From the NCBI GenBank assembly GCA_010093515.1, contig MU001689.1:65784-129783 (forward strand): a stretch of DNA of 64,000 bases. The letters are read 5' to 3'. Of the stretch, positions 761 to 60,897 are shown one piece after another. A model generated the notes under the pieces. It worked only from the letters and a program-made list of their open reading frames with translations, did no database searches and had not been told where the DNA came from. The stretch comes from Lineolata rhizophorae. Taxonomy: Eukaryota > Ascomycota > Dothideomycetes > Lineolatales > Lineolataceae. The number at the start of each line of letters is the position of its first letter. Position 1 is the first letter of the stretch. The translations under genes and the position numbers were made by a program.

Positions 761-3700
761 TCAGTACGGGATTCCGTTGGTTAGCAGCTGAAACTGATCG
801 TATCCCTTGGTTGAGTAACTGCTATAGCTCTTCTTGATCAAGTCGCGCATGAAATCCGCGGCCTCCCTCTCCGACTTATCCAGCACGAAGCGGTCCCTGA
901 AATGCTGGATTGTCTCGGGCTTGAAGCACGGCAGGCCGCTGTCTAGCATGACGACGACGATGTGCGCAAGATGCTCGCAGTGCTGCCGGCTGGCTAGGAA
1001 CGCTTTGATGCACAATTCCTCAAACCAGTGGTACGGCTGGCTGGTCGTGGAACCGCCCATGACGGCCACCATCTCCGACGTTAGCTTGAAGGGCGCTCGC
1101 TCGAACCGGATTCCGCCCGGCGCGATGTCGAAGCAGAAGCCGAAGTCGATGTGTAGGATGTGGCCCGCGTCATCGATCATGATGTTGCCATTGTGCCGGT
1201 CCTTGAACTGCAGCAGGTAGCTTATGACAGAATAGGCGGCCATGCTCTTGACGAAGTTCGACCGCGCCTCCTGGAATCGTAGCGAATCCGGTCCGCCGTA
1301 TTTGGACACGAAGTAGTCGTAAAGCCCGTTGACGGCCTCTCGCCCTAGCATGTCGCGCGAAATACTGTTCGGCAGCACGTCAATGACGCCGCATCCTGGC
1401 GCCGTCGCCGTCACCCGGTATGGGTTTACATACACGTCCAAACCGACGTTGTTGAAGATGCCCCGGAAGGCTGCGATCATTTGCAACGCGAGCACGTCTT
1501 GGCGGCAGTCGTCGCCGACTTTGAAAATCGCGGATTGCCAAACCTCGAATGTGCTTGGCGCACTATTGCTGTGGCTACCATTGACCGTAGCGACGGCATT
1601 GCCCATCGAATCCTCAGAGCCTGGCTTTGCTCCTTTCTCCTTGCGAATGCGGAACGTAGCCATGTAAGGCGCTTTGGCATGGCTCTGGAGCGGCTTTCCG
1701 GATTTCCGATCGATGCCCACGACGACGCCATCCGGATTGCTAGGCAAATAAACTCCGACCTCAACCTTGATCTGGCGTAGCTCCTCTTCGATCTTCTGCT
1801 TCTTCTCAGGTTTACTTTTCTTGATGTACGGACGTAGCTTTCCAGATATTCCGGTGACTTCGTTGAAGAAGGCAAATTCCCGATCATAGAAGGCGCGGTC
1901 CTTCTTGTGGAAACTCGCTTCGAGGTTGTTCATGACCTTGTCTAATGTCGGCTTGACCGGGTCGGGCTTCGCACGAAAAAATTAGCCTTAAAACCATTTC
2001 CTTTTTAAAAGAAAACTTCTTAGGATAAATGAACTTACTACTTGCGAATCCTCATCCTTATACGCATTCGCCTTCATATTCCAAATGATCTGATGCGCAA
2101 ACAACTGGGAGAACTTGGCCGTCTCCAAGATGTACCTCTCCACGTAGCCTAGGACGTCGTACCGCAGCGTCTGCACAATCTGCGGCACATAGAAGAACGT
2201 CACGTCCACCGAGTGCGACTCGAGCGCGCGCATCGCATACTGGATCACGAACGGATGGTTGCCGTACGCCGGTAGGAAGTACGTCACGGCCGTGATCGGG
2301 TTGACGGGTGCCCAGAACAGCAGGTACTTGAGCTGGAAGTGCACGTCGTCCGGCAGCGAGGGCCCCAGAAGCAGCTCGAGCGCGTCCGGCTCCCAAAGGG
2401 CCTTGGTGGGGAAGTTCAGCAGCAGCCAGCGGACGTCCGCCTTGAGCTTTGGGAATGAGAAGCGCCTGGCAAGTTGAATGGCCAGCGCCGGGTTCTCAGT
2501 CCAGGCAGTCTTGAGAGACGAGCACAGTGCAGCTTCCGCCGGTTGCTTGTAGTTTTGTCCCGAAGCGAAGTGATGCCTCTTGTCGTAATCCAACGGGAAC
2601 AGCCACACCATGAGCCGCGTCTGTTCGCTTGTCAACAATATCAAAAGGAGATCCTGCTTTCCCCTGAGCGATTTGAGCGAGCCTTCTGCCTTGGACCCAA
2701 TGAGGTCGACATCCTGTAGTGCCTGCTGAATATCCGCGAGGAGATGCGTTTCCGCCTTGATCTGGAGCCTGTTACCCCCGAACGACCACCTTGGCTCGAA
2801 ACTAAACCACCTCAGCGCAGCCGAAAGTATCTTATCCTTGAGCCTCCATCGATCCGCCGTATCTAGACTAGTGCTGAAACGGAGAATCCGCAAGCCTAGC
2901 AAGACGATATGAAAATGAACCTCTCTTGCGAGCGGATGGTTCGTCGTCTCAGCCATCGCATCCAATGTGACGTGTATAAGCCTGTCATAAATCCGCTGCA
3001 GATGCGGCGTGCCTAGTCTAGTTGCATTGAAATGGCTGGACAAGAACTGCAGCAGTCTGAAATGCGGTGAGATTAAATTGTACGCGAACTGCTGACGCTT
3101 CCAAGTCGCGTCCTTGTCCGAAGGGGCAAACTCTTGCTTGATGTAAAATGGGTCCTTGTGATGGAACTTGAGCGCGAATAGCCCTCGTCGCTTGCGCACC
3201 GTGTTCTCCCAGTTCTCCGCTATCTCGGCCAGCACGCGCGACTCCATGCGCGGGTTCTCCTTGATGACGCTCATCCACAGCGAGATGCCTAGCTTTATGG
3301 CCTGCTTGGTGAAGACGGCAAACGGGATGCCGACCAAGTGGTGCAGGAGGCGGCATTGGTCCTTACGGACGCGGCACAACAGTGCGGCAGCCCGCCTGAG
3401 AACGTCGCGCAGCTCCGCAATGGCGACATGCTTGTTGCTCAGCGTGCGACTCTCTAGCTCGGCAAGGATCGACGCGGCGTCCTCGACGTTCTTTTCGAGC
3501 GCGTAGTTCCCACGGACAAAGGGCCCGCCTCCATCGCCGGACATCTTCAGCCACTCGTGATCGTGATCCTGGATGCCATCCACAAAACGGTACTCCTGAC
3601 GAGACGTGTACTGCGCAATGAAATCTGATGCAGTGTTGATGTGCACCTCTGGCTGCTGCTCGATGGCGCCGAGGCGCTGGTCCGTCGACGGAATGACGGA

Positions 3701-6700
3701 ACCCATTTCGAGTGCAAATGACCTTCCGAGAGAAACGTGACCGTAGGCGCCGTCATCGTCATGCTCGGATAGATACGTCTGCAATAGGCCTTTGATATCT
3801 AGCGGCGCAATGTTCATAACTTTGATAACCCACTCCCTCGCCCACTTGTGGAAATGGCTTAGTGTGGCGCGGCGGAAGGCAAAATCGTCAGATAACTCGA
3901 CCCAGATACCTTCTCTACGTGACTGGTACACAGCCGTCCATTCGTACTCATCAGTGTCCATCTCAAGGCATGAGCTCCACATTATAGTCAGCAGCTCGAG
4001 TAATGCGAACAGAGACTTGCGCTGACACAAAGCCGACGGCACACGCGTGATAATCATGTCCGCGCACGCTGTTGCCACCTGCTGCACTTTGCTGATGCGA
4101 TGGCAGCACCCGGCAAGGATGCCAGCAAGCTGCTGTGCCACATAGGGAGTTGAGAACGCGTAGGAAGTACCAGTCATAGTGCGGGAAAGGAAAGTGCGCA
4201 CGGCGCCGTTGGCAATTGCAACCATACAATGCCCCATGCCGCCGCTACGCAATTTGGGGTCAAGGAAGTATGCAAGTGCCTTGGTACAATCGCCTCCATT
4301 GGCACGAAGGCACTCCACAAGGTGTGTTGCATTGAGGAAGACCACTTCAGGGTAGCTAAGTGACTTAACCTCCGGCTCGCAGTTAGGCGGGAGAGCGGCC
4401 ATCAAGTTGCGCTTCTGATCAACGACGTGCTCAGGACTCTTACCGCGTCGGAGCACGATGTTAAGCTCGATGTCACTCTCGAGCTGGCCATCGGCACGGT
4501 TCTGCGCGATCAGAGGTCGACTATGATACGCAAGCACCTTGAGCTCACTGGTATACTTCTGACCAAGTGGTAGACTGAGGTTGAAACCATGAACAACAAG
4601 ATTAAACCATGCATCACGCATCAGCGGGGTAACGGTGTCGTTGTCTTCGTCAGTTTCAGGAGACTCGTGAGCCGAGACTAGTGTTGCCAAAGGGGGAAGC
4701 ATCTGCGCAATCTCTTGGGCAGCCAGCTCAGCGTCCGCAAGATGCTTGTTGTCGTTTTCATGAGCGTCCCCTTTACTAATAATCGTGTCGAGAAGGTGGA
4801 CCAAATATATTTCGTAAAGAGGCGAGTCCCTGCTGACGTTTCTCGAAAGATGGAGCCGCGCAACTCGCACCTAATACCAGTTAGCTAAAACCATGATTTA
4901 TAATACATACTTGCTTCTCGATTGCACTTACAGATTCCAAGATCACGAAGTTCTCACGAACCAGAGCATCATGGCAAAGCTTGGCGTACAGCTTTAGCAA
5001 CGACTTTAGCTCGCTAGGGTCTGCGCACGCCCCCAGATACGCCGTTTCCGTGATGATTTTGGCATCAACCAACAAATTCACCCTGCCAATCTTCTGAACG
5101 AGCATCGACTGCGCGAGTGCATTGATTTTCTCGTCATTGCAGGCTGTCGCAATTCGCACAATGCTCTGAATCACAGTCGTGTACACAGTCGAAGGCTCCT
5201 CCACGTCGGTCGGAGCTAGGGAAATGGAACTGCCAGTTGCCGCCTGCGATTTATACAAGCCTGTTGCCCTTGGCGAGTTGGTAGACCCGTCAATGAAGTC
5301 GCCGGCCGCTGCACTCCGGTCCGGGACCGAATCTGTGCTTAATACATTTCCCAGAGTATATAGCGTAGTGATGACGGTATCCTCTGGGAGGAGCTTGAGC
5401 GTGGAAGCCAGGCAATCGGCGGCGAGGCCCGCGGTGCCGTTCCCGAATCCACCTTGGACGACAAGCCTAGGCAAAGACCGCCCAAGGCTCGCCGCTATCG
5501 AGGGAGACACAGTCCCCAGGACGGCCATGGACTTGAGCACGACATCGGCCAAACTCTCGTCCGAGCTCTGGACCGGATCGGCAAGAACACTTTCCAACCA
5601 ACTCATGAGAATATCCGCATCGGCAATCTCCTCGTTACGGACGGTACAACAAAGGAAGCTCGTGATAGAGCTGCCCTTTACCGACGAGGCTAATCGCTGT
5701 TGCCACGCGGACCCCAACCGAAGATAGTCTGACCCCTCTTCCAGGAGCCTTATTTCCTCGGCCGCAATCTCTGCAGCGCCTTCCAGGAGGCTTTCACTCG
5801 TTTGGTCGGGCGGGAACTTACGGCTCCGTCCATCGCCGCGGCGCAGGATATCGAGGACACCGTCTTTGGCGAGCGCATCGGGCGAAGCAACCAACAGCGA
5901 CGCAAACGCCAACACCACTTCCATGAAGCCCTTTCTCAGCAGCATGGCTCCTAGCGGCCGCCCATCGGCCGCATAGTGCTTATAATACCTCTTCCACTCC
6001 CTAAGCCCCTTTTGCGAGTGTCTAGCGTTCCTCACCAGCGACAACGCGGTCTCCAGCGCCGTCATGAAGCGCTCCGAGATGGCCGACCCCAGCATCTCGA
6101 TCAAGGGCAAGCGCTCTTTCACAGGCCAAAAGACGGCCTTCCCCGCGGCCGCCCTGAGGAAGCCCAGCAGCGACGTCGTCAGCGTGACGATGCGGCAGAT
6201 ATCCGTCTCGGTGGGCGAGCGCTCGCCGCTGCCGGCGCCGCCATACTGCTCCGCGCCCAGCGCCTCGGCGAAGCGCGCCCACTTGGTCGTGTACTGCTTG
6301 ACGGCGGCGGCGGCCAGGTCGCGCAGGTCCGGGTGGTTGACGCCGAGGGCGAGCACGGCCGAGGCCAGGTTGAACGTGAGTGTCTCCCAGGGCGAGGCGC
6401 CGAGGCTGCGCAGCGACGGCGACGACGCGACGGCCTGGCAGGCCGACTCGGCCAGGTAGGGCGAGATCTGGCGCAGCAGCTGGAAGGCGGCGTCACGGGC
6501 CTGCACGAGCGGGGCCGCCTTGCAGAGCGCGACGAGCGTCTCGAATTCGGGGAGCGTCTGCGGGAAGAGAGGTCCAGGTTTGAGTCATTTTTGCGCATGG
6601 TCAATCCCGGCGCGGCGCAAGGGAACAGGTGCTTGAATCGCGGGGAACAACGGCTGGACGGACTTGAGGGAACGTACCATGGGAACCCGCGCCCCGGGGG

Positions 6701-7945: not shown

Positions 7946-10660
7946 ATGTTGTCCCAAGTTCCCTCTCTACGTCCATTCGAAATGGAGCAAGTTAAAGTTC
8001 CCTCGGAGGTCAAGAAAGAGGTCATCGACCTGGCGACCCGCAACAACGAGGCCATCTATCAATTCTTTGGAGAGCAAAGGGAATGCAACCGACATGGCGA
8101 ATCGTATTTCCCCAGCTCTGTCCCCTTCCATTCCCGAGGCCATAACCCTTCAATGCTAACGTCGAGATAGGCAAGCCCTCACCAAGTCTGATGTTTTGGA
8201 ACCAGGAGGGGAGGGAGCCTCGAATCCAAAAGATGGGAATCCCCCCAAATCACGCAACAAGGAACCTCTAGCGATGGAAGAGGCTAGAGCCGCTGCCACA
8301 AAGACAAACCAGCCGACTCCCGAACTGCCGACCTCGGAGGACCAAGACCCTGCACATGATACGCATTATCAAAACGTGTTGCGAAGCATCCCTTGTACCC
8401 CGGGAGAGCAGCTGCACTGGAGGGTTAAAGTCCTAAAGAGGCTGCATGCCTGTGCAGTGGAACTCTGCGACATCCCGAAAACTGACGAGGAGACTGCCAT
8501 AGCGGTTCTCAATAAGTTTTGGAACGACGTGAACGATTATGTTAGAATCGGGAAGAAAATCCCCATGGGCGAAGATGAAAATGGCTGGTACTACCTGGTG
8601 TGGGGCGAGGCGATTGGTGCACCGCCATCCTTTGGGCTCGGGGTAATGATAGAAGATGTGCCAAAGGACCAGAAGAGCGCGTCAAGGTCGATTGACCCGC
8701 TAGACAAGAATCTCCTGGAGATTATCAGGAGATCTTTATTCGGCGAAGATTATGGCGGCTTTCTTGAATCTATCCAAAAAACGAAAACATTCCTACAGGC
8801 AGAAAAGTCAAAAAAAAAATCGCGGCAAGCCAAGAAGTCCGTAATAAGCGAGCAAGAGGCTCGGGCTATTGCTTCCATCCAAGATCAAAAATCTTTTGAA
8901 GGCGCAGTCGCACGAGCACGGGCGCTAGGGTTGAACGCTTACCTCGCTAGGGACAATCAGAGGAGATACCGTCTTTTTGCGGGTGACGTGCCTGGAGACC
9001 AAGCTGATGTGATCGAAGTGGAGGTCAATGCTGGCAAAGGTAAAACTAAGGAACTGATGCGCGAGCTAATCAACAAGGGCCCCCAGGAGGAAAAATACGC
9101 CGCCCAGCAACTGAGAGACTCATGGAAGCTCATTACGAAGGGCCTTTCTGGAACAGTGGACGAATCATCTAAAGAAGGTAAATGTCCGCCAAAGACCAAG
9201 GAGTCCTCCTAAGTTGCAATGCATCTTCACTTTCCATCTAACAGCAGTGGTATCAAGCCAGTGAAGACGAATCAAAGGCGGAGAAGACCCCGCCGTCTTC
9301 TAGAACCGTCAGCCCTGAACCTAGCAGCGCAACTTCCAAACCCAGCGAGCCAGCGCCGACAGTTGAGAGGACCGCTGAGCCTTCTCGTCCGGCGACACCC
9401 TCTCCGCATCCTCCATCATACGAAGAATCAATCGCTCAACCCCCCGCCGCCGAGAATGTCGCCGAACAAGGAGAAGCTTCAAAACGCGAGGAATTCCAAC
9501 GTATGGAGACGTCCCAAGTCCAGAATCTGGTCAGGCAGCTCCAAGGCTTGTATCTCTCCCCGCCGCCTTCGGAGACGGACAAGTTGCAGCCCAGCGAGGA
9601 ACCACAGTCGCCACCGCTGCCATCGACATCATCGTCGTCGTTACGGAGTCCCGAGGCAGCCCAAGGCCCGCCGCAAGAAGCAGCCGTGACGATCTCAGAC
9701 CCGGGCCAGCCCGAACCGCGCACGACGCCCGGCACGCCAGACGCGGCGGCTTCTGAGCCGTTTTCCTGGCTGACCGACTGGGAGACGTACATGTTGAAGG
9801 CCCACGAGCGCTGTCGCAGCGCCGGGGAGGTGCTGACCAAGGACCAGTTCTTCTTGCTCCGAGCGTGGGTCGAGAGGAAGGTAAGGACGGGTTACATAGC
9901 GCGGCTGCCCGACGACGCGCCCGACGGCTGGACGTCGCCCTCAGCGCTCCTCCGCATGCCCTCCTTGCGGCGCTCCTGGCGCCACGTGGTCAACTACAAC
10001 GACGTCATGGCCTGGATGCACCGCTCGGGCCTCGGCGCGCCGCCGTTGTCGCCGCCGCAGCCGCCGAGCGCCGCCGTCCCCGACGACTCCGGCCTGCGCA
10101 ACCTGGCCGCCGCCGGCGTCGTCTCGCTCCTCCAGGTCACGTTTGCGCGCGTCCCGTTCGACGAGGAGACGAGTCGGCTGACGCGGTTCGCGACGCCGTG
10201 GGGCCGGTTCGAGTGGCAGGCCGGCATGCCGCTGATCAATACGGCGCAGCCGGCGGACCCGCTGCGGCTCTTCCGGCGCTGCATCGTCGACTCGCTCGGG
10301 CGGTTCCTGGACCACTTCGTCACGAGCTGCTTCGAGTTCGTCATCGTGTACACGATACCACCGAGAGACGAGAGCCCGAAGCGCCCGCTCTGGATGCGGC
10401 ACTTGGTACATCTGAAGGTTGTGCTTGGGCAGTTGAAGAGGGCACATGCGTTCGTGGAGTGGAGGCAGAACAGTATGTTCATGCCGGGACCGGGTCTGTT
10501 TGCGTGGGCGGATGAGCAAGAGGCTTGGAAGAAGGACGACAGTTGGATGGAGAAGTCGGAAAGCGATGAGGACGAGAAGAAGAGAGCGCAGCAGCAGCAG
10601 CAGCAGTCAAAGAACCAGAAAAAGAACAAAAACAAGAACAAGAATAAGAAAAGGAAATGA
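7946..10660 (+). CDS. Hypothetical fungal protein, basic Gln/Lys-rich tail
   Basis: Not recognised. A three-exon model (7946-8103, 8171-9177, 9258-10660) keeps frame and gives 855 aa. The N-terminus is short and charged. Next comes a soluble mixed region with aromatic-rich patches such as ENGWYYLVWGEA, then a Lys-rich stretch (KSKKKSRQAKK) and a segment reading SFEGAVARARALGLNAYL. Residues about 390-550 are Pro/Ser/Glu-rich and probably disordered. A globular-looking C-terminal part follows (PFSWLTDWETYML; HFVTSCFEFVIVY), ending in a run of six Q and a KNKNKNKKRK tail that could act as a nuclear or nucleolar signal. I see no signal peptide or membrane helix. Intron 1 has a weak GTATTT donor but a good GCTAAC branch site and ATAG acceptor. 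Intron 2 (9178-9257) uses GTAAAT and must use the acceptor at 9257, because the nearer AGs at 9244 and 9247 break the frame and lie too close to the CTAAC. Gene existence is fairly sure; splice ends are less so. Confidence 0.62.
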
Positions 10661-12181
10661 GTGTATGCTACTCGCTAAGCTTTCGTTCATAGGTAGCTGG
10701 TGTGGGCTGTAGTTAGCCACTTTGGTTCGGCCTAGAGTCGTCCAGCAGCAGTCACTCCAATAGGAAAAGAGCCATGATACGTCCGTACCGATGGAGCCCA
10801 CTACAATGAATGCCGCATGCCCCGTTACCAATTGACCACGCACTCACCTACCTCCAAAGCGATCCACAACCTCCACCCGCACCAATTGCGCCCGCAGCCC
10901 CAACCCCATCACCCTCAAACCACACGTCCAAACGTTACGAAACCCGAAACGATTCCGCAGAAACGCTTCTGTACCACGACGTCACAGTGCAAGGCGCCAT
11001 GCCACCTCGTACCTCGTACTTCGTCCCATTCGCCACCCCCTGGGCTCTCCCCAGCGGGGAACCCAGCGTAAAAAGAGAAGACAACACCGCACTCAGTCAA
11101 TGGACGGACGCCCTCAGCGAGAGCAGCGAACAACGGGGCACATGAGCACCTGGATCCGCCAACCATAGCCAGACACGCCGGGACGCGAGGTGATCACACG
11201 GCAGCGCGGAGCAAGGCATATTCACGCGCTCGACGAGGAGCCAAGATATTCTCTCAGGTGGAACGCTTTCAAGACGGCCATGTACAGACACAAAGACGGG
11301 GGGCCGTCTTCGCGTTCCCCTCGATGTCAAAAACTACCGAAAAAAAGCCCTCTTTTCCAAAAAAAAAAAAAATCCCGTTTCTCAAAAGCAACAAAAAGTT
11401 TTCGGTCGAAGAGTCCCGGCTTTTCCAATGCCCTATTGCCTTTACCTCATTCCCATTTGAAAATTTACTCCCCCAACAACAATATACCCGGAGCGGCGAA
11501 AAAGCACGAATTGTTGCAAAAGGGCTCGCTAAAGCTAACCGAAAAGCAATATAGAATTCGAAAACGTTGGTATCACTGGGTAATAATTGTGTCTCGCGAG
11601 AAGACCCGGAAAGAAGTGGGGAGAAAGCAAGTGCTATTAACGAGGCCAGGGGTAAAATGGCAGAGTCGAAACCGGAATGGATAAGAAGCTGACCGTGGCC
11701 AGCAAAACAGTCGGTACCGGTTAGAAAGAAGAAAAGCAAAAGCATGAAAAAGCACGCAACGAAACGACGCAAAACCACAACCATCAACTCATAACTCTCA
11801 TTCCCTTTTTCATTTCCATTCCATAAAAGAAAAAAAGAAAAAAGAAAAAGCTCAACCACATCTCCAAACAACCATCAAGACATCGAACGCTCGCCCGCCA
11901 ACCCACCTAAAACCCCCACAACGACAAGAAGCGCAAAGAAAAAAAAAATCAACCCCCCATCTCCCATCCACCCACACTCCCCCAAACCCGAGGCACGAAA
12001 GACCCGCGAGACCCCACGGGAGGAAAACCGTGCCCCCTGAAAGCGACTTCCCATCGTCGAGGAAAAAAACCGGGAACCCAGCGGCCAGACTCGGCGCCGC
12101 CACCAGCAAGCAGTCAACAGCATCAGCATCGTCGTCGTTATCGGCATCGGCATCGGCATCGGCGTCGCCCCGCCCTCCACT
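10661..12181. other. intergenic between convergent genes
   Basis: No gene recognised. The stretch contains A-rich patches (11361-11371; 11822-11850; 11937-11950) and His/Pro/Arg-type shadow frames of low complexity. It must contain the 3' ends of the upstream plus-strand gene and of the minus-strand gene ending at 12182. The A-rich block 11740-11950 is the likeliest place for the terminator of the minus-strand gene. Confidence 0.45.
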
Positions 12182-15108
12182 TTACATAAGGACGCACCCA
12201 TCCCCGCCCCCCTTGGCCGACGCGCCATTCCTGCTCTCCCCCGCCACGACGTGCACCTGCTGATGCCCGGCGGCGCCAGGCCCACCAGCATGGTGAGCCT
12301 CGCCGGCGCTCGCCCTCCGATACTGCTGGAACTGCTGGTACTGCTGCTGGTACTGCTGCTGCTGGTGGTGAAGCGCACGCGACGACCCACCAGCGGGTCC
12401 CGACCCGCCCCCCCCGACGACGACGGAGCCGCCCTCAGGTTTTTTTCTGTCTTTTAAAGACTGACTGCGCCCGCCACCGGCCGCGCCCCCCGCCATGTAC
12501 CGCAGCAGCCCGATGTTGGCCTCCTTCTTCTTGCGGTGCTCCTTAACCGGCCGCTCCGGGTGCACCACCACGACGGGCTCCTCGCCCACGGCGCCCGGAG
12601 GCGGCGGCGGAGGCGGCGGAGGCGGCGGCATCGCGCCCGGCGGAGCTGGCGGTGGCGGTGGCGGCGGCACCCCGTTCGCGCCCGGGGGCGGAGGAGGCGG
12701 CGGCGGAGGGATGCTCATCCCCGGCGGAGGCGCCGGTGGCGGCGGCATGCCGCTCGCGTGGGCGTGCTTCTTCTTGCTGCCCTTCTTGGAGACCTTGATA
12801 GGGCCGCCGACCAAGTAATCGGCGGGGCCAGGCGGCGGCGGTGGCGGCGGCGGCGGGGGCGGCAGAGGGCTGTGGCCGGGCGGGGGCGGAGCCGAGCCCG
12901 GCGGCGGAGGCGGCGGAGGAGGCGGCGGCGGGGGCTCCGGCATCGGCCACATGTGCATGGTGATGGTCCAGTCGGGCTGCACCATGGTCTCCCAGACGGG
13001 CGGCAGGATGATCTCGTTGTCCGGTCCGACCAGGTCGTAGTGGCCCTCCATGACGTGCGGGCCGATGACGTCCACGTGCGCGAACGCCTGCTGGATCAGC
13101 TTCTCCATGCCGTGCCACGTCTTGCACAGGTCCCACGGGAAGCTGAACTTGCGGCCCACAGCGTCCTTGAACTTGATGGGCGGCTTGGGCCCTTCTTCCT
13201 TGGGCTTGGCCGCCTCGAGCTGCTCCTCGGCCGCCTTCCGAGCCGCCTCGGCCGCATCCGCCAAGGCCTTCGCGTCCGCAATCTCCTTCTCTGCCGCCGC
13301 CTTGGCCTCCTCGGCCTTCTGCGCCGCCTCCTTCTCCGCTTCCTCGCGCGCCTTGGTCTCTGCTTCAATCAACTCCTTGGCGCGCTGCTCCGCGGCCGCC
13401 TTCTCAGCCGCTTCCTTGGCGGCCTTGGCCTCGGCCGCCTTGCGCTCCGACGCCGCGCGTGACTCGGCCGCCTTCTCGCGCGCCAGCTGCTCCTCCTTCT
13501 GCGCCAGAATAAGCTTCTCCAGCCGTCCCAGCTTGTCCTCGTCCTCCTTCTTCTTCTTCTCGGCCTCCTCGCGCTCGGCGTCCTGGCGCGCCCGCTCTTC
13601 CGCAAGCTCCTTGTCGATGCGAGCCTGTTCCTGCCGCATCAACAGCTCCTCCAGCCTCTTCAACCGCTCTTCGTCCGGGTTGGGCGGGGGCGGGGGTGGA
13701 GGCGGAGGCGGAGGCGCCGGGGGCGCAGGAGGTGGAACCTGTGCCACCTGGTTCTGAGGAGGGGGTGGAGGCGGTGGCTGCTGCTGGCCCGGAGGAGGGG
13801 GTGGGCTAGGCTCAGGCGCGGCCGGCGTGCGCCTCTGGTTGCGCGTCGGGCTGGGCGAGTGCGTGTGGGACTGGTGCCCGGGGTGTGGCGGGTACGGATA
13901 CGGGGGCCACCCTCCGTAGGGTTGGTAGTATTGTGGCGCACCGTACGGCATCAGACCCATCTCGTCGCCGCGCGGAGGGGGTGCGGGTGGCATGGACATG
14001 CGGTGCTGTGCCCGTGGTCGGTGCGGCAGGTCGCGAGAGGGTACTTCGCGTGGTGGCGGCGGCGGCTGGTCGAAGTACCCATTGGGCGGGCCCCTCCCGA
14101 CCGGCGAGAAAGGGTTGCCTTGTGGATCGGGCCAGAAAGGGGCCATCCTATCCGCGTACGGGTCGTGATGGCGGGGTAGAGTCACGAGCGCGTCCGGCGA
14201 CGGGCCCGGCGGAGGCCCGCCCGAGAACGGGTTGCCATACGAGAGCGCGCTCTGGGCCCACGGATCAGGCGGCTGTTGGGGGATGTGCGACCATCCCGGA
14301 TAAGGGTGGTGACCCGGCGGCGGCCGCCCATAGGGTGGGGGGTACCCCGGGTAGTCGTCTTGACTCTCCAGACTGGTGGAGTGCCCCCCGACGGAGAGGG
14401 GTCGGGTCCGGGACTGCACGCTGGGATCGCGACGCTCCCGGCGGGGAGCGTGGTCGCGACGGCTGGAGCGGCGCGGCAACGGTTCGGGCGGCAGCTGGTG
14501 GTGGTGGTGGTGCCGCGAGGCGCTGGGAGCGCGTCGCGACGTGGTCTTGGGCCGGATGGACGACGGCGCCCGAGCGGACGGGACGACCGGCACGTCGTAG
14601 TGGGCGTGGCGCGAGCGGTGGCTGCGGTGCTTGGAGTGGCTGCGCGGCCGCGACGCCGAGTCGGACGGGTCGATGTCGTCACCGAGGTCGTCCCACTCCT
14701 CTTCCACCTCCTCTTCGAGCTCGTCCTCGTAGAGGTCTTCGTCCTCCTCGGGGTAGCCCGCCTGGCTATCGGGCGAGGGCACCTGGACGCCGGACGACTG
14801 GCCGTCGGAGTACGAATCGCGATCTGAACCTGTGGCGGTGAAGGACTGGCGGTCCGAGCCCGTGGAACGACTGATTGTGATGCTTTTCCTGCGGGTTGCG
14901 GTGGGTGGTTAGCGGCACGTTCGGACCCGCGGTAAGGGGGGCGGGTGATCACGCGGCGAGCTCTGGGACGGCCGGCCCCCCGGGTTGATCCTGCCCGGGG
15001 CGGCTGCCCGATCCGGCCGAGGCGCATCCACGAGTCCCGGCACGGCGGGCACGAGTGGACGGGCGGTTTGGGGGAGGGAAGGTGCGGGACGAGGGCGACT
15101 TACGGCAT
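12182..15108 (-). CDS. Proline-rich ubiquitin-like-domain protein with CaaX end
   Basis: The model has a 5-nt first coding exon (15104-15108, ATG CC), a 215-nt intron 14889-15103 (GTAAGT donor, GCTAAC branch, CCGCAG acceptor) and a 2707-nt exon, giving about 903 aa starting MPKSITISRST. In order it shows an acidic block (DEDLYEDELEEEVEEEWDD), an Arg/Ser/His-rich region, Pro/Gly/Tyr-rich disorder, a polyproline run, and a long Glu/Ala/Lys coiled coil (about residues 405-565). A conserved fungal ubiquitin-like domain follows (about 570-650: KFKDAVGRKFSFPW, LIQQAFAHVDVIGPHV, WETMVQPDW, ITMHMW). After it come several polyproline runs of up to 12 P and a Gly/Gln-rich tail ending GDGCVLM. The last four residues fit a CaaX prenylation box with Met at the end, as in farnesylated Ras. 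Polyproline could bind profilin, SH3 or WW partners (inference). The coiled coil and domain make it a real protein; its function is unknown. The first exon is less certain than the rest. Confidence 0.78.
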
Positions 15109-15870: not shown

Positions 15871-15892
15871 GGGGGGAGAGGGAGGGGGAGGG

Positions 15893-15964
<72 letters not shown>

Positions 15965-15980
15965 GGGGGAGGGGGCGGGG
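15871..15980. repeat. poly-G tract with G5A-type flanks
   Basis: Positions 15896-15963 read as 68 uninterrupted G. They are flanked on both sides by runs of 3-6 G separated by single A (15871-15895 and 15964-15980). On the plus strand this would fold into stacked G-quadruplexes. A homopolymer this long may equally be a sequencing or assembly artefact, so the true length is uncertain. Confidence 0.95.
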
Positions 15981-20384: not shown

Positions 20385-23300
20385 TCATGAAACGTCCACC
20401 CCGACTCCGCAAATCTCCAATATCACGTTTGCAATAGTGCTCACAGCCCACAGCACCACCAAGCCCCATCCAATCTGTCTATCCATCCGCCACTTCCGCC
20501 AGGGCACCACGATCAGCAAACCCACGAGCGTCACCATCAGCGTGGCCCCGCTAATCATCAGCGTGCTGCTCACGTCGATGTGGTACGGCTTGAACTTCAT
20601 GGGCCGATCCGGATGCTTCTCCTGCTTGTGCTTGGCGCCCTTAATCGTCATGTAACAACCAGAGACTCCTATTCCTATCAGGATGTTGAGCATGGGCCCG
20701 CCGAAGCAGGCCGAGAGCGCCATGATGGGATAGCCCAAGCGGGCGACGGTGATGTCGGCCACGAAGTCGCCGAGAGAGTTGCCCACGGCGAAGATGGTTA
20801 GCCCCAGGATCGCGTCCGAGATGTTGAGCACAACGCCCAGCGTCTTGAGCACGCCTACCACCTCGTTGGCAATGGTGCTAATCCAGGTGATGCTGACGGC
20901 GAAGCCGACAAAGCAGAGAAGCGGGCGCCAGCGCGGCGGCCGCGTCGCCGTCGTCGTCCCAATAAGCAGCGCCAGGACTACCAGCGACACCACCAGCGCC
21001 ACTAGCACTGGCTTAACAAGCAGATACGGCTCCGTCGGGTGCATGTTGGCCCATACGATGACCACGATGAAAAGCGGCGCCGTGAACGTCTGCAGCATCA
21101 CTAGCCACCGGTTCCACTGCTTCGGCTCGACCGCCTTTGGCGTCCCAGCAGCGGGGAGTTGCTCCGGTGACGCGGAAATCTGGGGCTGTGGGCGTGGCCG
21201 TTGGCGCTGCGGTGCTTGCTGCGGCGGCCCGTGTGTGGTTACGCCTGGCCCGCCGGAATGAAACCGTTGGCGGTGGACATCCTCGGCCGCGGTAGCCACG
21301 TCGATGGTACCGTAGTCTACCGATCTCCTCCGGCCCCTGCTCGGAGACAGATTGTGCTCGATGGCAGCGTGCGGGGCTGCATGGTTGTCGCCGTGGCCGT
21401 TCATAAGGGTCGACGATTCTGTGGGTTGCCCGTCATCATCGATCAGGATTCTTACCGTGGCCGCGTTCTGCGGCGGCCGCTTCTGCGGCTGCGATGGTGG
21501 CACTGGCGAGGCGGGACCAGGCAAGCTAAGCTCCGGCACAGCCGTCGTGCCATCGTCCCCGTCCTCCTCATCCTCCTCGTCCTTTTGAGTTTCCACAACC
21601 GGCAATGTAATTGTGAGAAGGAAAATGCTCGGTGCAGCGACTATGGCCAAAAACCGCTCCCAAGTGTTTTTATCCTTCCACGTGTAGAGCGTGGGAAATA
21701 ACGTCGAGAAGAGCACCTGCGGGGGCGGTAGCATCGTGAGCGGCCACCACTTTGGCGGCCTTGGCTCGTCATGCCCTAGTAACGTGTCTCCGTAATAACT
21801 CTCAGGTGACATGCTAGGTGACGGGAGACGGATGCTTGGTGCCCGAGAAGCGGTACTAGCAGAAAGTGGGTAATCTGTGTAAGCGGGAAATGGCGAGACT
21901 GGCGAGTGTCCTGATTGTTGTGGTGCTCTGGCGGCGCTGGAGGGAATCTGAAGTTTGGGGGCTTTCGGCGCTCCCGACCGTGTAGCTGTCGAGGCCACTG
22001 CTTCCCGCGAATCGGCCTGGCCGTCAATACGTCCATGGTGATCCCGATGCTGCGGGTTTGGATGGTTCGGGTCTGAGGGAGGCGCTAGTCGATTGGGTGA
22101 CAGTGCCCGCGCGCTCGATGGCGCAGGACTAGAAGCCCTCGACGTCTGTGATGGAGGCGGGGAAAGAGAAATAGTCGGAGAAGGTGGTACAAGTGACGAC
22201 CGTCGCGTGGATGACTGGTCATGGGTAATTGATCGGTCCTCCGCAAGTGGTGCCAGGAGGTCAATCTGCGGAACATTTGGTCTCCGCATTGCATCGTGGT
22301 CAATTCGTAGGGCGTCCGCACCATTTGCGGACACAGCTCTCACGCGATGGGGACCGTCCCTAGCATCCAGGCTAGGCCTCGAAACCGAAAGAGAGGTGCT
22401 GTCGGGACCAAGCGACACGTCGAATGAAGGCCGCGACGATGCAGGGTCGGAAAAGGTAGATAGTCTGTCCTGCTGCTGCGCGGTGGTGAAATTCGGGTCA
22501 TCCGAGTACCGCCGTAAGTATATAGGTTGTGACTGGATATTCCTTGATTTTTGCAGCGAAGTTAACACCGCGCGAAATTCGAGCGCGCCCACCAGGCTCG
22601 GCCGAATTGGCGTTTTGGTCAGCCGCCTAGCCCTAGATCGTGGGCGGCTCAATCGCATGTTGTTGCTCAGCTCACTCATCCATCGTCCACGCGCCTCTTC
22701 CTCTTCAAGCTCGTCTTCCTCGGCACCATCCCCTCCCATCTCCAATGCAGCAAAGTCATCCTGGGAGACCCCCCTGGACTGAGTGCGTGTGTGCGTGCCA
22801 GCCGATCCATCTTCGTCCTCATCGTGATACTCAGGCATGTCTGCCTCCTCACCTCCTGGGACAACGAAATGGCTGCGCGAGGTCACATCTATCTGCCTCC
22901 ATCGTCGGCGCCGTGTAAGCCACCAATGCCATACAACGACGAACACAACATAAAACAGATAGAAGCCAACCATAGCGACACATTCCCAAAGATACAACGC
23001 TCCATCCCACAGAAAAACCAAGCTAAATCCCGCTGCTGCAGTGAAGAAGCAGACGTCCCGTATAAAACTCCGTCTTGCAACTTGAAATGGCCTGACCAGA
23101 GCCATTGATCCTGCCACGACAGCAGTAATGAAACTCGCCGCACCGATCAATTCGCCGACTGCAAGGCTGCCGCTGTTTGTACTCATGGCCGCGAACGTAG
23201 AAAACACATCGGGGCTTCCGTTGCCAAACGCCAAAAATGTAACTCCGGCCAGACTCTCGCTCATCCCGAGCAATGATGCAATCGTGCTGAGATTAACGGA

Positions 23301-23789
23301 AAAGAAGTCGCTCGCTGCGATGCCAATCGTGCTGAACAAGAGGGCCAGCCATAGTATGAGAATCACAAAGGCGAGGGCTTTCGCATGAGGAAGGCGACAA
23401 TAGTAGAGGGAGAGGTAGGATATAATGCCCGCTTCTTCGTCCGGGCAGTTGGCGTGGACAAAAGCGCATTTGTCAACGGCTTTGTGGACATGTCGACACT
23501 GAAATTGCGAAGCTAGAATTAGCAACAATACATAAAATTTTGAGCTGCAGTTGAAGCGCCGTTATACCTCTTCATCCTCTCCATCCTGCAACAAACCCAC
23601 ATCTCTGCGCAGTAGTCCGCTGGAGCTTAGGTCGCTGCCTGCGACGCCGCTACTACGATCTCGAAGTATGGCTAAAACAGCAATGATAGAAATAACGAGT
23701 ATAGTTAGATAAAATGGCCTGGCGGAATATTTTTGGCGCTGCCTCTTCGCAGCTCGGTGTCGCGTGCGCGCGACTACGTGGTCGGCCAT
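20385..23789 (-). CDS. Cation/Ca2+ exchanger (CaCA superfamily, NCKX/CCX-like)
   Basis: Membrane antiporter predicted to exchange Ca2+ for Na+/K+ or H+ at an internal membrane; the closest remembered relatives are fungal YDL206W-like and animal NCLX-type proteins. Exons 23568-23789 and 20385-23498, joined in phase 0 across a 69-nt intron (donor GTATAA, acceptor TTTCAG), give about 1111 aa. Exon 1 encodes a signal-anchor-like helix (FYLTILVISIIAVLAIL). Exon 2 begins with a cysteine-containing luminal segment and a first set of about five hydrophobic helices holding the alpha-1 repeat (GVTFLAFGNGSPDVFST). A very long Ser/Pro/Arg-rich cytosolic loop of roughly 430 residues follows, then a second helix set holding the alpha-2 repeat (GLTIFAVGNSLGDFVADI, FGGPMLN). 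The two GNGSPD/GNSLGD motifs are the ion-binding signatures. The exact ion and membrane cannot be read from the sequence. Confidence 0.88.
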
Positions 23790-24395
23790 GACGACGGCCT
23801 AGGCAGCTTCGGGTGGGGAATCGACAACGTGCGCCCAGCTTGCGGCGCATAGCATTTAAGGCCTACTCAGGAGCAATGGCATGATCATGAATAAATGGGT
23901 CGCAAGACCAAGGGAGAAAAGGTTGCCTAGAGTGAGGGGCAAAATCAAAGATTGGGTGTGGAAAATAGGGACGTGGTGGCCTGCACCGCCTCAACACCTC
24001 GGCCGTGGACTGGAGTTGGTGGCGATGATGGTCCAGCGAGGTGACGGAGCGCGCAACCGATTGTTCGCTACCGTGGAATGCGATGGTGCCTAGCACCTTT
24101 GGGAACCGGCCTCAAGCCACAAGCCAAGGGGATGGTGTCGGTGCAAGATTGTGGCGCAGCTCGGAACATAGCTCTGCCGCGACAATGCACGGAACGATGC
24201 CAAGCGTTCGGTGGCCCCCCGGCCCGGGTTTGTTTACCAACACCGAGCGCCCGCCGTGCGACGCTCGCCGCGATACACGTTAACGGCGCGCAACTTGACG
24301 CGGCAACGCTGCTTTCCTCCCCCCAACTGCATTCCTCGGGATACTTCGATGCTACCGGAATTAGTGGGACTGCATCAACACATATTTTGCCCATC
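23790..24395. promoter_or_regulatory. divergent intergenic region, exchanger / condensin
   Basis: About 600 bp lie between the start codons of two divergent genes and should contain both promoters. No protein-like frame and no clear TATA box were seen. Confidence 0.4.
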
Positions 24396-27110
24396 ATGCC
24401 CCGCGCGAGGGAACGCTACAGCACGGTTGCGACGCCGCACAAGTCGCCAATGAAGTATGTCACCTTTCAGGTCGCGGCATTCACTGCGCATACATCGTCA
24501 CTATTTCTTTGGCTACACGTTTTGCAGCTGAAATGCTAATCTCCAAATCAACGCGCAGAATACCTCTCAACGATGACCGTCGGGAGAAAGCCAACAGGCT
24601 GCAATCGCGGCAGGCACTGCACGAAATGCAGATGAACCAGATCAAAGCTGCCGCTACACCTATACGAGGCCGAAAATCGCTCGTAGGCACGAGTCCACAC
24701 ACTCCCGGGAATCAGAACGATGACGACGGCATGCCGGCTGTGTCCGGGCATGCCGTCACGCCGATGAAACGCGTGCCCATACTAGCAAACTTTGAGGAGT
24801 GGATGAAGATGGCAACAGACAATGTACGACTTTCTAACTACATGGCTCCGGAAATTCGGATCGGCATCTAACTAACTCAACCAGAAAATCAATGCCACCA
24901 ACTCCTGGAACTTCGCCCTAATCGACTACTTCCATGATATGTCACTCCTGAAGGAAGGTGACGGAGTCAATTTTCAGCGCGCCAGCTGCACGCTTGACGG
25001 CTGTGTAAAAATCTACACGTCAAGAGTCGACAGCGTAGCTACTGAAACAGGTCGCCTTCTCAGCGGCTTAGCTGACAGCTCTACTAACAAGAAGCGCAAG
25101 GGAGACGAAGAGGATGAAGACGCTGAGGACGACGATGGCGAGGAGAATGAGGATGGTACGAAGAAGACGAAGAAGAAGCGAACACAAAGGTCATATGAAG
25201 CCACGCTCGCGTCTTCTTTCGCTCAATTACAGTTAAAGAAGATGGAACTTGAGCTTTCTGTCGATCCACTGTTTAAGAAGGCGTCAGCAGACTTCGACGA
25301 GGGTGGCGCCAAGGGCTTGCTGCTGAATCATCTAGCAATTGATGGCAATGGCCGAATCGTGTTTGATAGCAGCGACGACGCTCAGGATGCCGCCGCAGAT
25401 GGCAAGGACACCAGTGACGCAGATATCAGCGAAGAATCGAGAATCGAAGAGGAAGAGGCACCTAGCAACAATCCCGACATCAACATCACGGATCTTGCTA
25501 CCAAGTTCTTCCCTGATCTTTCTAGGCTCGCCGAACAAGATATATGCCCCTCGCTGAAAAACCTCGACCTTGGAGATCCCAACGGTTCCCTCGACCTCCC
25601 ATTTCTTAAGGCGCCGGAAGACTGGCGGGAGGCCAACAAAAATCAGCATTCGGGCACTGCTGCCGGTGATCCGTCGGGTATCTTTCTCGACGACGAAAAT
25701 GCCATGGGCTTCGACGACGACGACGATGTCAACCTCGGCGGCTTCGACCTGCCCCCCGAGACCGGCTTCGGTGAGGGCGGCGAAGCATGGGCCAAGGACG
25801 CTGCGCTAGACCCACAAATGCGCGTGCACATGCTCAGCGGCGACGGCAACGACGGCGGGATGGGCGACGGCGAGGAGGGCATGGACGGCGAAGTTGGAGC
25901 CTTCGAACCCGGCGCGCCCGCCCAGTATGCCGTCGCACTGCGACAAGGCCATGAGGATGACCACGGCAACATCCTAGGTTACTTCGACCAGGCGTTGCAG
26001 AAAAACTGGGCGGGGCCGGAGCACTGGCGGATCCGGCGCATCAAGGACATGAATAGCAAGGCTGCGGCCGCCGCGTCAGCGGGGCCCAAGAGGAAGGAGA
26101 AGGAACCGTTCGAAATCGACTTCGCGGCGCCCATGAGCCAGGCGCTCGCCGACGCCCTCTATACGCCTGCGTCATCCAACTCGACCGTCTCCCTGCCCAA
26201 GTCGCAGTGGAAGTCCAAGACGCGCAACCTGCTGCCCGACGACAAGCACTTCAACTCACGGCAACTCCTGCGCCTGTTCCTGAAGCCCAAGGCGCGCATG
26301 GGCTCACGTAGGCCTGGCGCCGGCAGTGGTGGCTCTGGAGGGTGGGCACAACAGGGCGCCGGCGGTGCTGCGGGGCCTGAGGATCAGGGCGAGGTCGACG
26401 AGGGCTACTGGGCACGCAAGGAAAACTCGGCGCCACCCAATCCTGACGATGAAGAGGCTCCGCAGGGCGACTATGACGCCAACTTCTTCCAGGATGATGG
26501 TTTGGGTGTGCCAGGTGGTCCGGACGACGACGACGCCGATGATGTCTTTGCGGACGCACGGGAGGCTATGACGCCACCCGTGGAGGGCGCCGAAGGTGAG
26601 GCCAGGCCAGGCATAGATGGCGTGATGGCCGGTGCGAACGGCCAAGAAGGTGCGTTCGGCGCACAATTAGTAGCCCAGAGTCGGCGGGTCAGGCCGGAGT
26701 ATGTCCAGTATGCGCGCGTGGCGAAGAAAGTAGACGTAAGGAGATTGAAGGAAGAGATGTGGAGGGGCATCGGGTTTGAAAAGGTTAGTGATTTTGCACA
26801 CATACTTCGGCCAATTCGATTGCTAAGTTGATACCACTAGCCGGAAGTTCCACCAACGCCATCAAAGCCACTAGCTGCACCTGTGCAAAAGGCAGAAGAT
26901 GGCTCGCTCAAGTTCACAGAAGTTATCAGCAATCTGCAGACCGTCTATCCGAAGCAGGCTATGGCAGACATATCAACGTCATACTGCTTCATCTGTCTGC
27001 TTCATCTGGCCAATGAGAAGGGCCTCGTGATTTCCAACGAGGAGAACTTCCAGGAACTAACCATCCGACGAGACCTGTCTGCAGAGATCTCGGAAGTGGA
27101 AGAGTCATGA
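24396..27110 (+). CDS. BRN1: Condensin complex subunit 2 (kleisin, BRN1/CAP-H)
   Basis: Kleisin subunit that closes the SMC2-SMC4 ring of condensin and drives mitotic chromosome compaction in the nucleus (family knowledge). Four exons, 24396-24454, 24559-24823, 24885-26783 and 26841-27110, keep frame and give 830 aa, normal for the family. The N-terminus reads SPMK|IPLNDDRREKANRLQSR across intron 1, a hallmark of this family. The N-terminal SMC-binding helix region follows (MKMATDN|KINATNSWNFALIDYFHD). Next are an acidic/basic patch (GDEEDEDAEDDDGEENEDG then KKTKKKR), the conserved TLASSFAQLQLKKMELELSVDPLFKK, and long acidic Gly/Asp-rich linkers. The C-terminal winged-helix region that binds the other SMC subunit closes the protein (VDVRRLKEEMWRGI, then FTEVISNL, SYCFICLLHLANEKGL). 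Donors are GTATGT, GTACGA and GTTAGT, with clear CTAAC/CTAAT branch sites. Divergent from the exchanger and convergent with PRP28. Confidence 0.93.
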
Positions 27111-27648
27111 AGCTATCTAGGTACTTTTCGGTTACAATCATGAAAGGGCTCTCCGGGACGTGGACTGGTGGTGGCGGATATTAGTGGAGTTCATCGTGGG
27201 TTGGTCTCTCTGGGCTGCGTGCATTGTATTAATGCTACCTTGTCAGTGCGTAGCAAGCTTGGGCCTAGATGATTGGCGTACTTGGCTAGGCAACCCCTTT
27301 TATTTCTATTACGGGTAATAACATTGCATTGCATCGACTACACCAAAGCGTGTTCTCGACTTTCTTCACGAAGCATGAATCGAGGCACACCTAACGAAGC
27401 AGCAACTCTGTACGCCCCCGAGCAAACACCGCCAAACCTAGAAAATATGTTACATGTTCAATTTAAGTCAAAAATTCTCTAAGTCATTTGGAAAATGCTG
27501 TTGCAAAGACGTTGAGATAATTGTGGTAGGAATTTGGATTTTTAATGCTATAAACACCTACAAAAGTCGCTGCCCGCCATCACAAGCTACACCACGCCAA
27601 TCATACAAGCACAAAATCAATAATCATTTCCCACCAGTTCGAACCCTG
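27111..27648. terminator. shared 3' intergenic region of BRN1 and PRP28
   Basis: A gap of 538 bp separates two convergent stop codons. It is AT-richer than the genes and contains no protein-like frame. It must hold the 3' ends of both transcripts; no single poly(A) signal stands out. Confidence 0.4.
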
Positions 27649-29635
27649 TTACCATCCACCCTTACCTCCAAAAGCCCCACTATCCTCCAAGGCCTTAGAA
27701 CCACCACCCTTCGACTTCTTCTGCTGCGCGGCTTCATGCTTCCTAAGCTCTTCAGGCACGCGAGAGATACTCGACTTCTGCAGCATCTGCTTGAGGTCGT
27801 ACATGACATCTGCATCCTCGTTGCCCAAGAAAGTAATCGCCACACCGCTTTTGCCCGCTCGACCGGTACGGCCGATACGATGGGTGTAGCTCTCGATGTT
27901 CGTCGCCATGTTGAAGTTGATGACTACGCTAACATCCGGGACATCGATACCGCGGCCGGCAAGATCGGTCGCGACCAGGACCTCCTTAGTGCCCTTGCGC
28001 AAGCCCTCCAGCGCTTCCTCGCGTTTGTCCTGCGTCTTGCTGCCGTGTAGCGTGACGGCGGAGAAGCCCATGTTCTGGATGTCGCGAGCGACGGCGTCGC
28101 AGTTGCGCTTGATGTTGACGAAAACGATGATTGGTGGCGTGAACTCGCCACAGGACAGGATTTCATGGAGGCGCTTCTTGCGCTTATCCTCGCCGGAGAC
28201 GAACTCAACGCGCTGTTCCACGGTCTCAACTGCTTCGCCGACGTTGCCAATTGTCACATAGGCTGGACGTCTCAGGTACTTGCGGGCGATACGTTCAACA
28301 GCCGGTGGCATGGTCGCCGTATACATCATTGTCTGGCGGTAGCGGTCCTTGCCGCCGATGTGCTGTGACATGACCGCCGCATTTTCGGCCATGTCCGAGT
28401 CTGGCTTTTCGTTCTGCACTGGTAGCGCATCCAGGATCTTGTTGACTGGCTCTTCAAAGCCAAGGTCGATCATGCGGTCTGCCTCATCCATAATGACGTA
28501 GCAACACTGGTTGAGCACGAGCACGCGCCGCTCGATGCAGTCGACGAGACGGCCAGGTGTTGCTATAATGATCTCGGCTCCGTGTCGCAGATTGTAAGCC
28601 TGCTCTTCAATGCTGTGTCCACCGACGATACTAACGCAAGTAAAGCCAAGTGGCTTCGCAAATTTGGTGGCCTCGATTTCGATTTGCTGAGCTAATTCTC
28701 GAGTGGGCGCCAGAATAATAGCATAAGGCCCGTCATTCTTGCTGAACTCGTCAAGAGCGGGTAGCTCTGAAATGTAGACCAACAACGGGAGGAGAAAAGC
28801 TGCCGTTTTACCGGAACCGGTGACGGCAACGCCGATGAGATCACGCGACTGGAGGGCAATTGGAATACAAGCCCTCTGAACTGGCGTAGGCTCCACATAG
28901 CCGACAGAGTCCACAATTTCCATCAGTCGTTTAGGGAGACCAGACTCGTCCCATGAGCGCATTGGGTTCGGAATGGAACCGCCCTTAGTGCTGATGTTGA
29001 AGTCCTCCTTGAAAATGCGCCAGTCCCTTTCACGCATCTGATCCAGCCTCTTTTCGCTCCAGTGCTTATCGATAGCATTCCTTTGCGCCTCCTCCCTCCT
29101 CCGCCTCTCCATTTCCAACATCATTTTCGCGCGTTCCTTGCCCGCCTGGACATCGCGTTCCTCGAGCGCGCGCGCATACTTGCGCGCCACATCTTCCATC
29201 TTATCATCTGACAAACCACCCAGCCTGCCGCGTCCAAAGAAGTTTGCCTCCGTCTTGCTCTTGTATAGTGGGTTATAGTCCATGCTCGTATCCTCCTCGG
29301 CATTCCACTCAAAGTTGAACTTCTTATCCGTCGTCCGCTTCCGCTTCTTCTTCGCCGAGAAAGTCGATAGGTTCGTATCCGCGCCCATGTATCGCTGCTT
29401 AATCAGCGCCGCCTCAGCCTCCTCAGCATCTCGCGCCCTCTGCTCCGCTGCTCTATCCGCCCGCCCATTCCCGCCACCTCTATCTCTCCCTCCACCCGGT
29501 CTACCACCGTCCTCTTCCGCCCTCTCAGCAACCCGCTCCATCGCCGCCGGCCCCTGCGGAACCCGCATCGCGCGCGGCTGCGTCGGCACCCAACGCGCCG
29601 GAATCGCTGCCGCCTCCTTTTTCGGTTGCTGCTGC

Positions 29636-29667
<32 letters not shown>

Positions 29668-30015
29668 TGCCTTCGCCACGAACTTCTCACGCTGCGCCTT
29701 GGACACAAACTTAATCTTGCCCGCGTTAGCGTCCTTCTTCGCGGTAAGTTCCTCGATCGAGAGAGGTTGCCGGCGCGGAGGTTGTTTCGGCGTGCCATTT
29801 ACTTTAGGCGCGGACACCGCCGCGGCGCCGTTCGTCTTGGGAGGCGATGGGGGCGGCTCGGAGGCCGGAGGTGGAGGTGGAGGCGCTGAGGCGTCGGGCG
29901 GCGGTGGTGGAAACGCGTCCTCTGGGGGAGGTGGGACCGCCATATCCGGCGGAGGTGGCGCGACATCCTCCGGTGGAGGAGGAGGTGGCGAAGTGGGTGC
30001 GAATTTGGTTGCCAT
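27649..30015 (-). CDS. PRP28: Pre-mRNA-splicing DEAD-box helicase PRP28
   Basis: ATP-dependent RNA helicase of the U5 snRNP that helps exchange U1 for U6 at the 5' splice site (family knowledge). A single exon of 788 aa starts at MATKFAPTS. An in-frame ATG at 30105 would add 30 residues, but the protein-like proline-rich N-terminus begins at 30015. The order is a polyproline N-terminus, a poly-Q tract, a basic linker, and the family's own segment YMGADTNLSTFSAKKKRKR with NPLYK. Helicase domain 1 follows with GVAVTGSGKTAAF (motif I), PTRELAQQ (Ia), TPGRL (Ib), VIMDEADRM (II) and TATMP (III). Domain 2 has ITLHGSKTQDKRE-type IV/V features (ATDLAGRGIDVPD) and HRIGRTGRAGKSG (VI). The C-terminus is GGKGGW. 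All catalytic motifs are intact. Confidence 0.95.
29627..29668 (-). repeat. CAG/CTG trinucleotide repeat coding poly-Q
   Basis: About 14 nearly uninterrupted CTG units on the plus strand encode a glutamine run broken by one lysine in the N-terminal disordered part of PRP28. Such a repeat is likely length-variable between strains. Confidence 0.85.
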
Positions 30016-36218: not shown

Positions 36219-36493
36219 GATCAGCTTGCGAAAGGACTGTCATCAGTGACGGTCAATCAAAGGCAAGCGTTGAGAAGAGAGCCTGGTGGGCAGCAACCGA
36301 TGCGATGGCGCCTTCGAGCAGACGACCGATCAATCTGTGCTTAGGTCCCTGCGATATCTCTTGGCATGACAGGCAAGGCAGTGGCTCTCGTAGAATTGTT
36401 GTTATTGGTGAAGACCGAGAGGATAGGAACCAACGCCTGAACAAATACAGTAATGTAAGCGAACATAGGCACTCTGCACACGAAATTGGATTA
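36219..36493. other. short divergent spacer
   Basis: Lies between the FunK1 start and the first protein-like codons of the plus-strand phosphotransferase-like remnant. An open frame crosses it on each strand, but neither looks like protein. Confidence 0.3.

Positions 36494-58411: not shown

Positions 58412-60897
<2,486 letters not shown>

Follow-up and report, generated by a model that had tools for sequence, protein, structure and literature searches.

A ULD_2 domain protein of Lineolata rhizophorae with polyproline clusters and a candidate C-terminal farnesylation box

Long polyproline runs are found in the Ena/VASP and WASP/verprolin proteins, and the formin INF2 has a proline-rich FH1 domain and an FH2 domain; INF2 is not known to have a ubiquitin-like domain (ULD). 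Epsins and other endocytic adaptors carry NPF and DPW-type motifs, of which NPF is an EH-domain ligand, and the epsin-type adaptors have ENTH/ANTH domains. Farnesyl-type CaaX boxes follow the rule C-a-a-X, where X is Met, Ser, Gln, Ala, or Cys. The animal formin INF2-CAAX, as described in the relevant passages of PMC11589041, ends in a farnesylated CAAX box. The fungal cell-end proteins TeaR/Mod5 have a C-terminal CAAX motif and are tied to the direction of growth and to the formin SepA (relevant passages of PMC4039328). Loss of Ram1 or mutation of the CaaX Cys displaces the Ras proteins of Magnaporthe oryzae from the plasma membrane, according to passages of PMC6715606, a paper that gives no match to "ubiquitin" or "proline-rich".

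The protein considered here comes from a filamentous fungus, which gene content and intron style suggest to be an ascomycete, and combines a ULD with polyproline clusters, a long helix, and a CaaX-like C terminus. No paper on this protein or on this combination is found among the open-licence papers listed, an absence that is weak evidence. The same literature yields no functional paper on the ULD_2 family; the two "ubiquitin" passages of PMC9815663 do not concern ULD_2.

Gene model and domain architecture

The window, i.e., the whole 64-kb stretch of DNA that was analyzed, contains a minus-strand frame at 12182..14908 with 908 open codons. Its end, GGGDGCVLM followed by TAA, agrees with the GDGCVLM that an earlier reading of the bare letters (the sequence-only reading) had placed before a TAA. 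The frame is assigned to the second exon of a two-exon gene, deduced from splice signals (Table 1), whose predicted product has 903 residues, from MPKSITISRS to GDGCVLM. The earliest in-frame Met of the exon-2 frame is residue 250 of the protein, and the start would be supplied by the upstream ATGCC exon; the GCTAAC site starts 25 nt upstream of the end of the intron. The 5' end of this model agrees with the end coordinate, 15108, that the sequence-only reading had given. GC content at third codon positions of exon 2 is between 0.62 and 0.98 in full 50-codon blocks.

Table 1. Coordinates of the gene and its features in the window
Feature	Coordinates	Strand	Remarks
Exon 1	15104..15108	-	ATGCC (Met-Pro start), inferred; GTAAGT donor directly 3'
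Intron 1	14889..15103	-	215 nt, inferred; GTAAGT donor, GCTAAC branch-like site, CAG acceptor
Exon 2 including TAA	12182..14888	-	Residues 2-903; open throughout
NPF site 1	14225..14233	-	Residues 221-223, within GNPFS
NPF site 2	14108..14116	-	Residues 260-262, within GNPFS
N-terminal polyproline cluster	13682..13804	-	Residues 364-404; runs of 5, 7, 11 Pro
Long charged Ala-rich helix	13193..13681	-	Residues 405-567; single-sequence AlphaFold2 model
ULD_2 (PF22893.2)	12935..13189	-	Drawn as residues 569-653; profile match is residues 570-652
C-terminal polyproline cluster	12596..12934	-	Residues 654-766; runs of 12, 4, 11, 4, 9, 7, 11 Pro
C-terminal CVLM, candidate farnesylation box (Cys900)	12185..12196	-	Frame end; unspliced 3' end assumed

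The surroundings of the gene include a G-rich tract upstream of it (15871-15980, plus strand) with 68 uninterrupted G residues at 15896-15963, which might be either a true homopolymer or an assembly artefact. On the other side, eight copies of the hexanucleotide GCATCG (12120-12167, 80% match) adjoin the stop codon downstream, in the presumed 3' untranslated region. A plus-strand frame of 472 aa at 9242-10657 is convergent with the studied gene and has a Lys/Asn-rich tail; Pfam gives no match to it at E values up to 0.001. The neighbors identified by Pfam or PDB matches, located at 764-4870, 20388-30111, 34620-36239, 41088-42185, and 59030-60454, include a PI4-kinase, a Na/Ca exchanger, condensin subunit 2, a DDX23-like DEAD helicase, a fungal protein kinase, an IBR protein, and glutamine-fructose-6-phosphate aminotransferase.

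The fungal ubiquitin-like domain and the five or more polyproline runs that had been read from the letters are both borne out. A Pfam search with the exon-2 frame matches ULD_2 with an E value of 6.3e-37 and a score of 126.1 bits, the cut-off being 24.5 bits, over profile positions 3 to 85 of 85, i.e., nearly the full length; in the numbering of the 905-aa frame used for the search, the match spans 572-654, and its E value in the genome-wide search is 2.9e-37. The predicted ULD fold rests on this match: the structural model of the domain with 20 upstream residues has low confidence (mean pLDDT 48.8), and a PDB sequence search with the domain returns a single match with an E value of 0.24, taken as chance. 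Since the domain is internal in the chain and has no Gly-Gly directly after it, continuing instead into HMWPMPEPPPP, it has little resemblance to modifiers that are conjugated to other proteins and is taken as a putative binding or self-association module.

The genome (31 Mb in 48 contigs), a 5.8S search of which gives no match among the 39 of 869 candidates scored, has two further ULD_2 loci, which show 27% and 31% identity to the studied one over the aligned part and differ in their flanks. In the second ULD_2 locus (L002:162-2013), the domain exon is located downstream of a frame whose matches to SesA and PigL_N are weak and fall below the cut-off; these matches recall the N-terminal domains of fungal NLR-type proteins. 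Pattern searches for relatives give no match in the viral collection and 24 matches in the prokaryote collection, none of them a relative.

The part of the chain preceding the ULD is predicted by single-sequence AlphaFold2 to form one helix, which spans residues 2-158 of the 163 that were modelled (mean pLDDT 94.0). Residues 405-570 are 52% charged and 27% Ala, with weak heptads. The coiled coil proposed in the sequence-only reading is better described as a long charged helix; a coiled coil is not established, because large hydrophobic residues (LIVMFYW) fill at most 0.38 of the a/d positions in 20 segments of 28 residues taken with a step of 7, a fraction that rises to as much as 0.88 when Ala is included. 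Residues 405-567 are more in keeping with a single charged helix or a weak coiled coil than with a classic one, and a lone helix modelled without an alignment cannot separate these forms.

The protein has 11 runs of at least 4 Pro, the longest of 12, and two proline clusters flank the helix and the ULD. Residues 1 to 404 look disordered, are rich in Pro, His, Arg, Ser, and Gly, and finish in the N-terminal cluster. The C-terminal cluster is followed by a basic stretch and then by a Gly/Gln/His-rich tail that extends to CVLM. Apart from ULD_2, Pfam finds nothing in the exon-2 frame at E values up to 0.1, and this includes the FH2, EVH1, and ENTH/ANTH domains. The tail, polyproline, helix, and N-terminal pieces, searched separately, match no Pfam family at E values up to 1.

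The C-terminal CaaX box

The prenylation box that had been proposed is present as CVLM-stop, which satisfies the farnesyl-type CaaX rule given an unspliced 3' end, and the genome carries a gene for the beta subunit of farnesyltransferase. Eight exon matches to the prenyltransferase family fall into three loci, which by their best PDB sequence matches encode a Ram1-like farnesyltransferase beta (C4 locus, E value 8.8e-22), GGTase-I beta (C20 locus), and Rab GGTase beta (C13 locus); for farnesyltransferase, the search covered the beta subunit. Ras-family loci serve as a control for reading such boxes from frame ends. In 17 parsed loci, out of 30 returned (51 matches), there are 5 CaaX ends with Leu, 4 CC or CxC ends, 1 doubtful CAGG, and 7 ends with none of these, some of the latter exons not being the last ones. 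The 5 CaaX-Leu and 4 CC/CxC ends indicate that frame-end boxes are readable in this genome. Because a farnesyl-type end (X being Met, Ser, or Gln) is found in 0 of the 17 parsed loci, they provide no positive control for a box of that type.

The best-surviving rival explanation is that the CVLM ending is coincidental and belongs to an ordinary cytosolic, proline-rich ULD_2 protein with a drifting low-complexity tail. Among all stop-to-stop frames in the six reading frames of the window, with the studied frame included, loose CaaX ends occur in 22 of 3224 frames of at least 4 aa, 2 of 539 of at least 60 aa, and 1 of 220 of at least 100 aa. At the first of these rates, a genome of some ten thousand genes (an assumed number) would have tens of such ends by chance; indeed, chance CaaX ends must exist, because a proteome has thousands of ends. 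However, strict farnesyl-type ends are found in just 7 of the 3224 frames (1 of 539 and 1 of 220 in the two longer classes), and the only window frame of at least 100 aa that ends in CaaX, by the strict or the loose rule, is the studied one.

The 15-base pattern that encodes CV(L/F)M and a TAA or TAG stop has 3 matches in the genome versus 4 in the reversed control, so that the string by itself is no rarity; the two genomic matches outside this gene encode CVFM, preceded by 13 and 16 open codons. The composition of the protein argues against coincidence, as Cys occurs only at positions 590 and 900, and drawing four residues at random gives a loose CaaX with a probability of 1.4e-4 for the composition of the whole protein and 7.6e-4 for that of the last 130 residues, Cys included. 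On the side of coincidence are the low complexity of the tail and the two other ULD_2 loci, whose domain-bearing frames, which may stop short of the true last exons, end in ISET and FRWL, without a CaaX box. By eye, neither a basic patch nor a second Cys adjoins the box. A coincidental ending appears somewhat unlikely.

Partner motifs and the 3' end

Fifteen sequence patterns were compared with shuffled sequences over four regions of the protein. Those above the shuffles are NPF and its superset GNPFS, P.PPPR, PXXP, and, in the C-terminal region, [GAIL]P5. PXXP is found 36 times versus 24.7 expected in residues 1 to 404, and in the C-terminal region 44 times versus 20.4; P.PPPR has 2 sites versus 0.14 expected. 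Together with that of [GAIL]P5, these excesses are what clustered proline would produce. For PPxY and the directional SH3 patterns, the counts come close to those in the shuffles.

Polyproline next to G/P-rich tails had earlier been read as typical of actin-assembly factors such as formins and VASP, and the protein as a membrane-anchored scaffold that links a ubiquitin-like fold to actin or to SH3/WW partners. Domain support for actin is lacking, and the link to it rests on polyproline because Pfam yields no FH2, WH2, or EVH1. For WH2, no family is matched in the C-terminal pieces at E values up to 1 and the WH2-like pattern finds nothing, although short motifs can escape such searches. The segment LLRYMAGG...SLKDRKK has a WH2-like look but was dropped as a candidate, with no Pfam match at E values up to 1 and no pattern match.

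The NPF motif occurs twice in residues 1 to 404 versus 0.01 expected, and at least two copies are found in 8.5e-5 of 200000 shuffles. The test was post hoc; because the motif had been noticed by eye beforehand and 15 patterns were tried over four regions, the figure is corrected to about 1e-3 to 5e-3. The genome has seven EH-domain exon matches at four loci, and the two NPF sites, which the sequence-only reading does not mention, suggest an EH-domain or endocytic partner. Taken further, these observations could mean that the protein is chiefly an endocytic adaptor, with NPF, DPW, and proline-rich motifs, and that its connection to actin is indirect. The two GNPFS sites, the potential EH-domain partners, and one DPW speak for such a role. 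However, a single DPW is within chance (0.0755 of shuffles), the clathrin-box pattern, like LPxY, has no match in the protein, and the ENTH/ANTH domains are missing from the Pfam results, which makes this reading rather improbable.

A further alternative is splicing of the main mRNA, or of a minor form, from a GTGCGT donor-like site at 12197, which begins one base before the Cys codon, so that the C terminus would be without CaaX. The hexamer resembles a fungal donor, and an acceptor at 11689 with a CTAAC branch-like site at 11724 would give an intron of 509 nt and a short tail that lacks CaaX. However, fungal introns are seldom as long as 509 nt. Nine CAG/TAG acceptors lie between 12197 and 11300, and the one at 11689 alone has YTRAY 45 to 8 nt upstream; the other 8 have none in that range, including those at 12037 (161 nt) and 11907 (291 nt), the latter preceded by a TTGAT just beyond it. 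The alternative tails have no recognizable feature, and this reading is unlikely. It has a parallel in INF2, for which the relevant passages of PMC11589041 report CAAX and non-CAAX splice forms.

A proposed prenyl-anchored scaffold and its closest known systems

The explanation that we favor, with a probability of roughly one-half, makes the gene product a scaffold of a filamentous fungus that carries a farnesyl group; its anchor and all of its partners are putative. In this scheme, farnesyltransferase would modify Cys900 and tether the extreme C terminus to a membrane, probably the plasma membrane or an endomembrane at places of endocytosis or polarized growth. The proline clusters flanking the helix and the ULD might recruit profilin and/or SH3 proteins, and the NPF sites might bring in endocytic proteins with EH domains. 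If straight, the helix would measure about 23 nm; it would act as a spacer between the two proline clusters, with the ULD serving as a binding or self-association module.

A far bolder generalization, which is highly speculative, is that fungi have a class of scaffolds anchored by a prenyl group. In these, a ULD and a helical spacer would keep two proline clusters that bind profilin or SH3 domains, along with NPF motifs that bind EH domains, at the membrane; alternative splicing immediately ahead of the Cys codon would toggle the lipid, as it does in INF2, and a single gene would couple endocytic adaptors to hyphal actin assembly. Prenylation of the tail, if real, would give a fungal ubiquitin-like family a place at the membrane and a probable process, either endocytosis or polarized growth. 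Polyproline scaffolds anchored to membranes in hyphae would be relevant, too, to the positioning of actin during tip growth.

Compared with the known systems, the protein has long polyproline in common with Ena/VASP and WASP/verprolin but gives no match to EVH1/WH1 or WH2. With the epsin-type adaptors it shares NPF and DPW-type motifs in a disordered-looking chain; it differs from them in the absence of Pfam-detectable ENTH/ANTH domains and in its mode of attachment, which would be a prenyl group. It differs from INF2 in the FH2 domain, which is known in the latter and is not found here by Pfam. As judged from its sequence, the studied protein thus fails to show the domains expected of formins, Ena/VASP, WASP/verprolin, or epsins. 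The farnesylated CAAX box of INF2-CAAX (passages of PMC11589041) would be the counterpart of CVLM. With TeaR/Mod5 the studied protein shares a C-terminal CAAX motif, and the passages of PMC4039328 that deal with these proteins mention no ubiquitin-like domain in them. For a prenyl-anchored scaffold, INF2-CAAX, TeaR, and the NPF adaptors are proposed, by analogy, as the systems closest in function.
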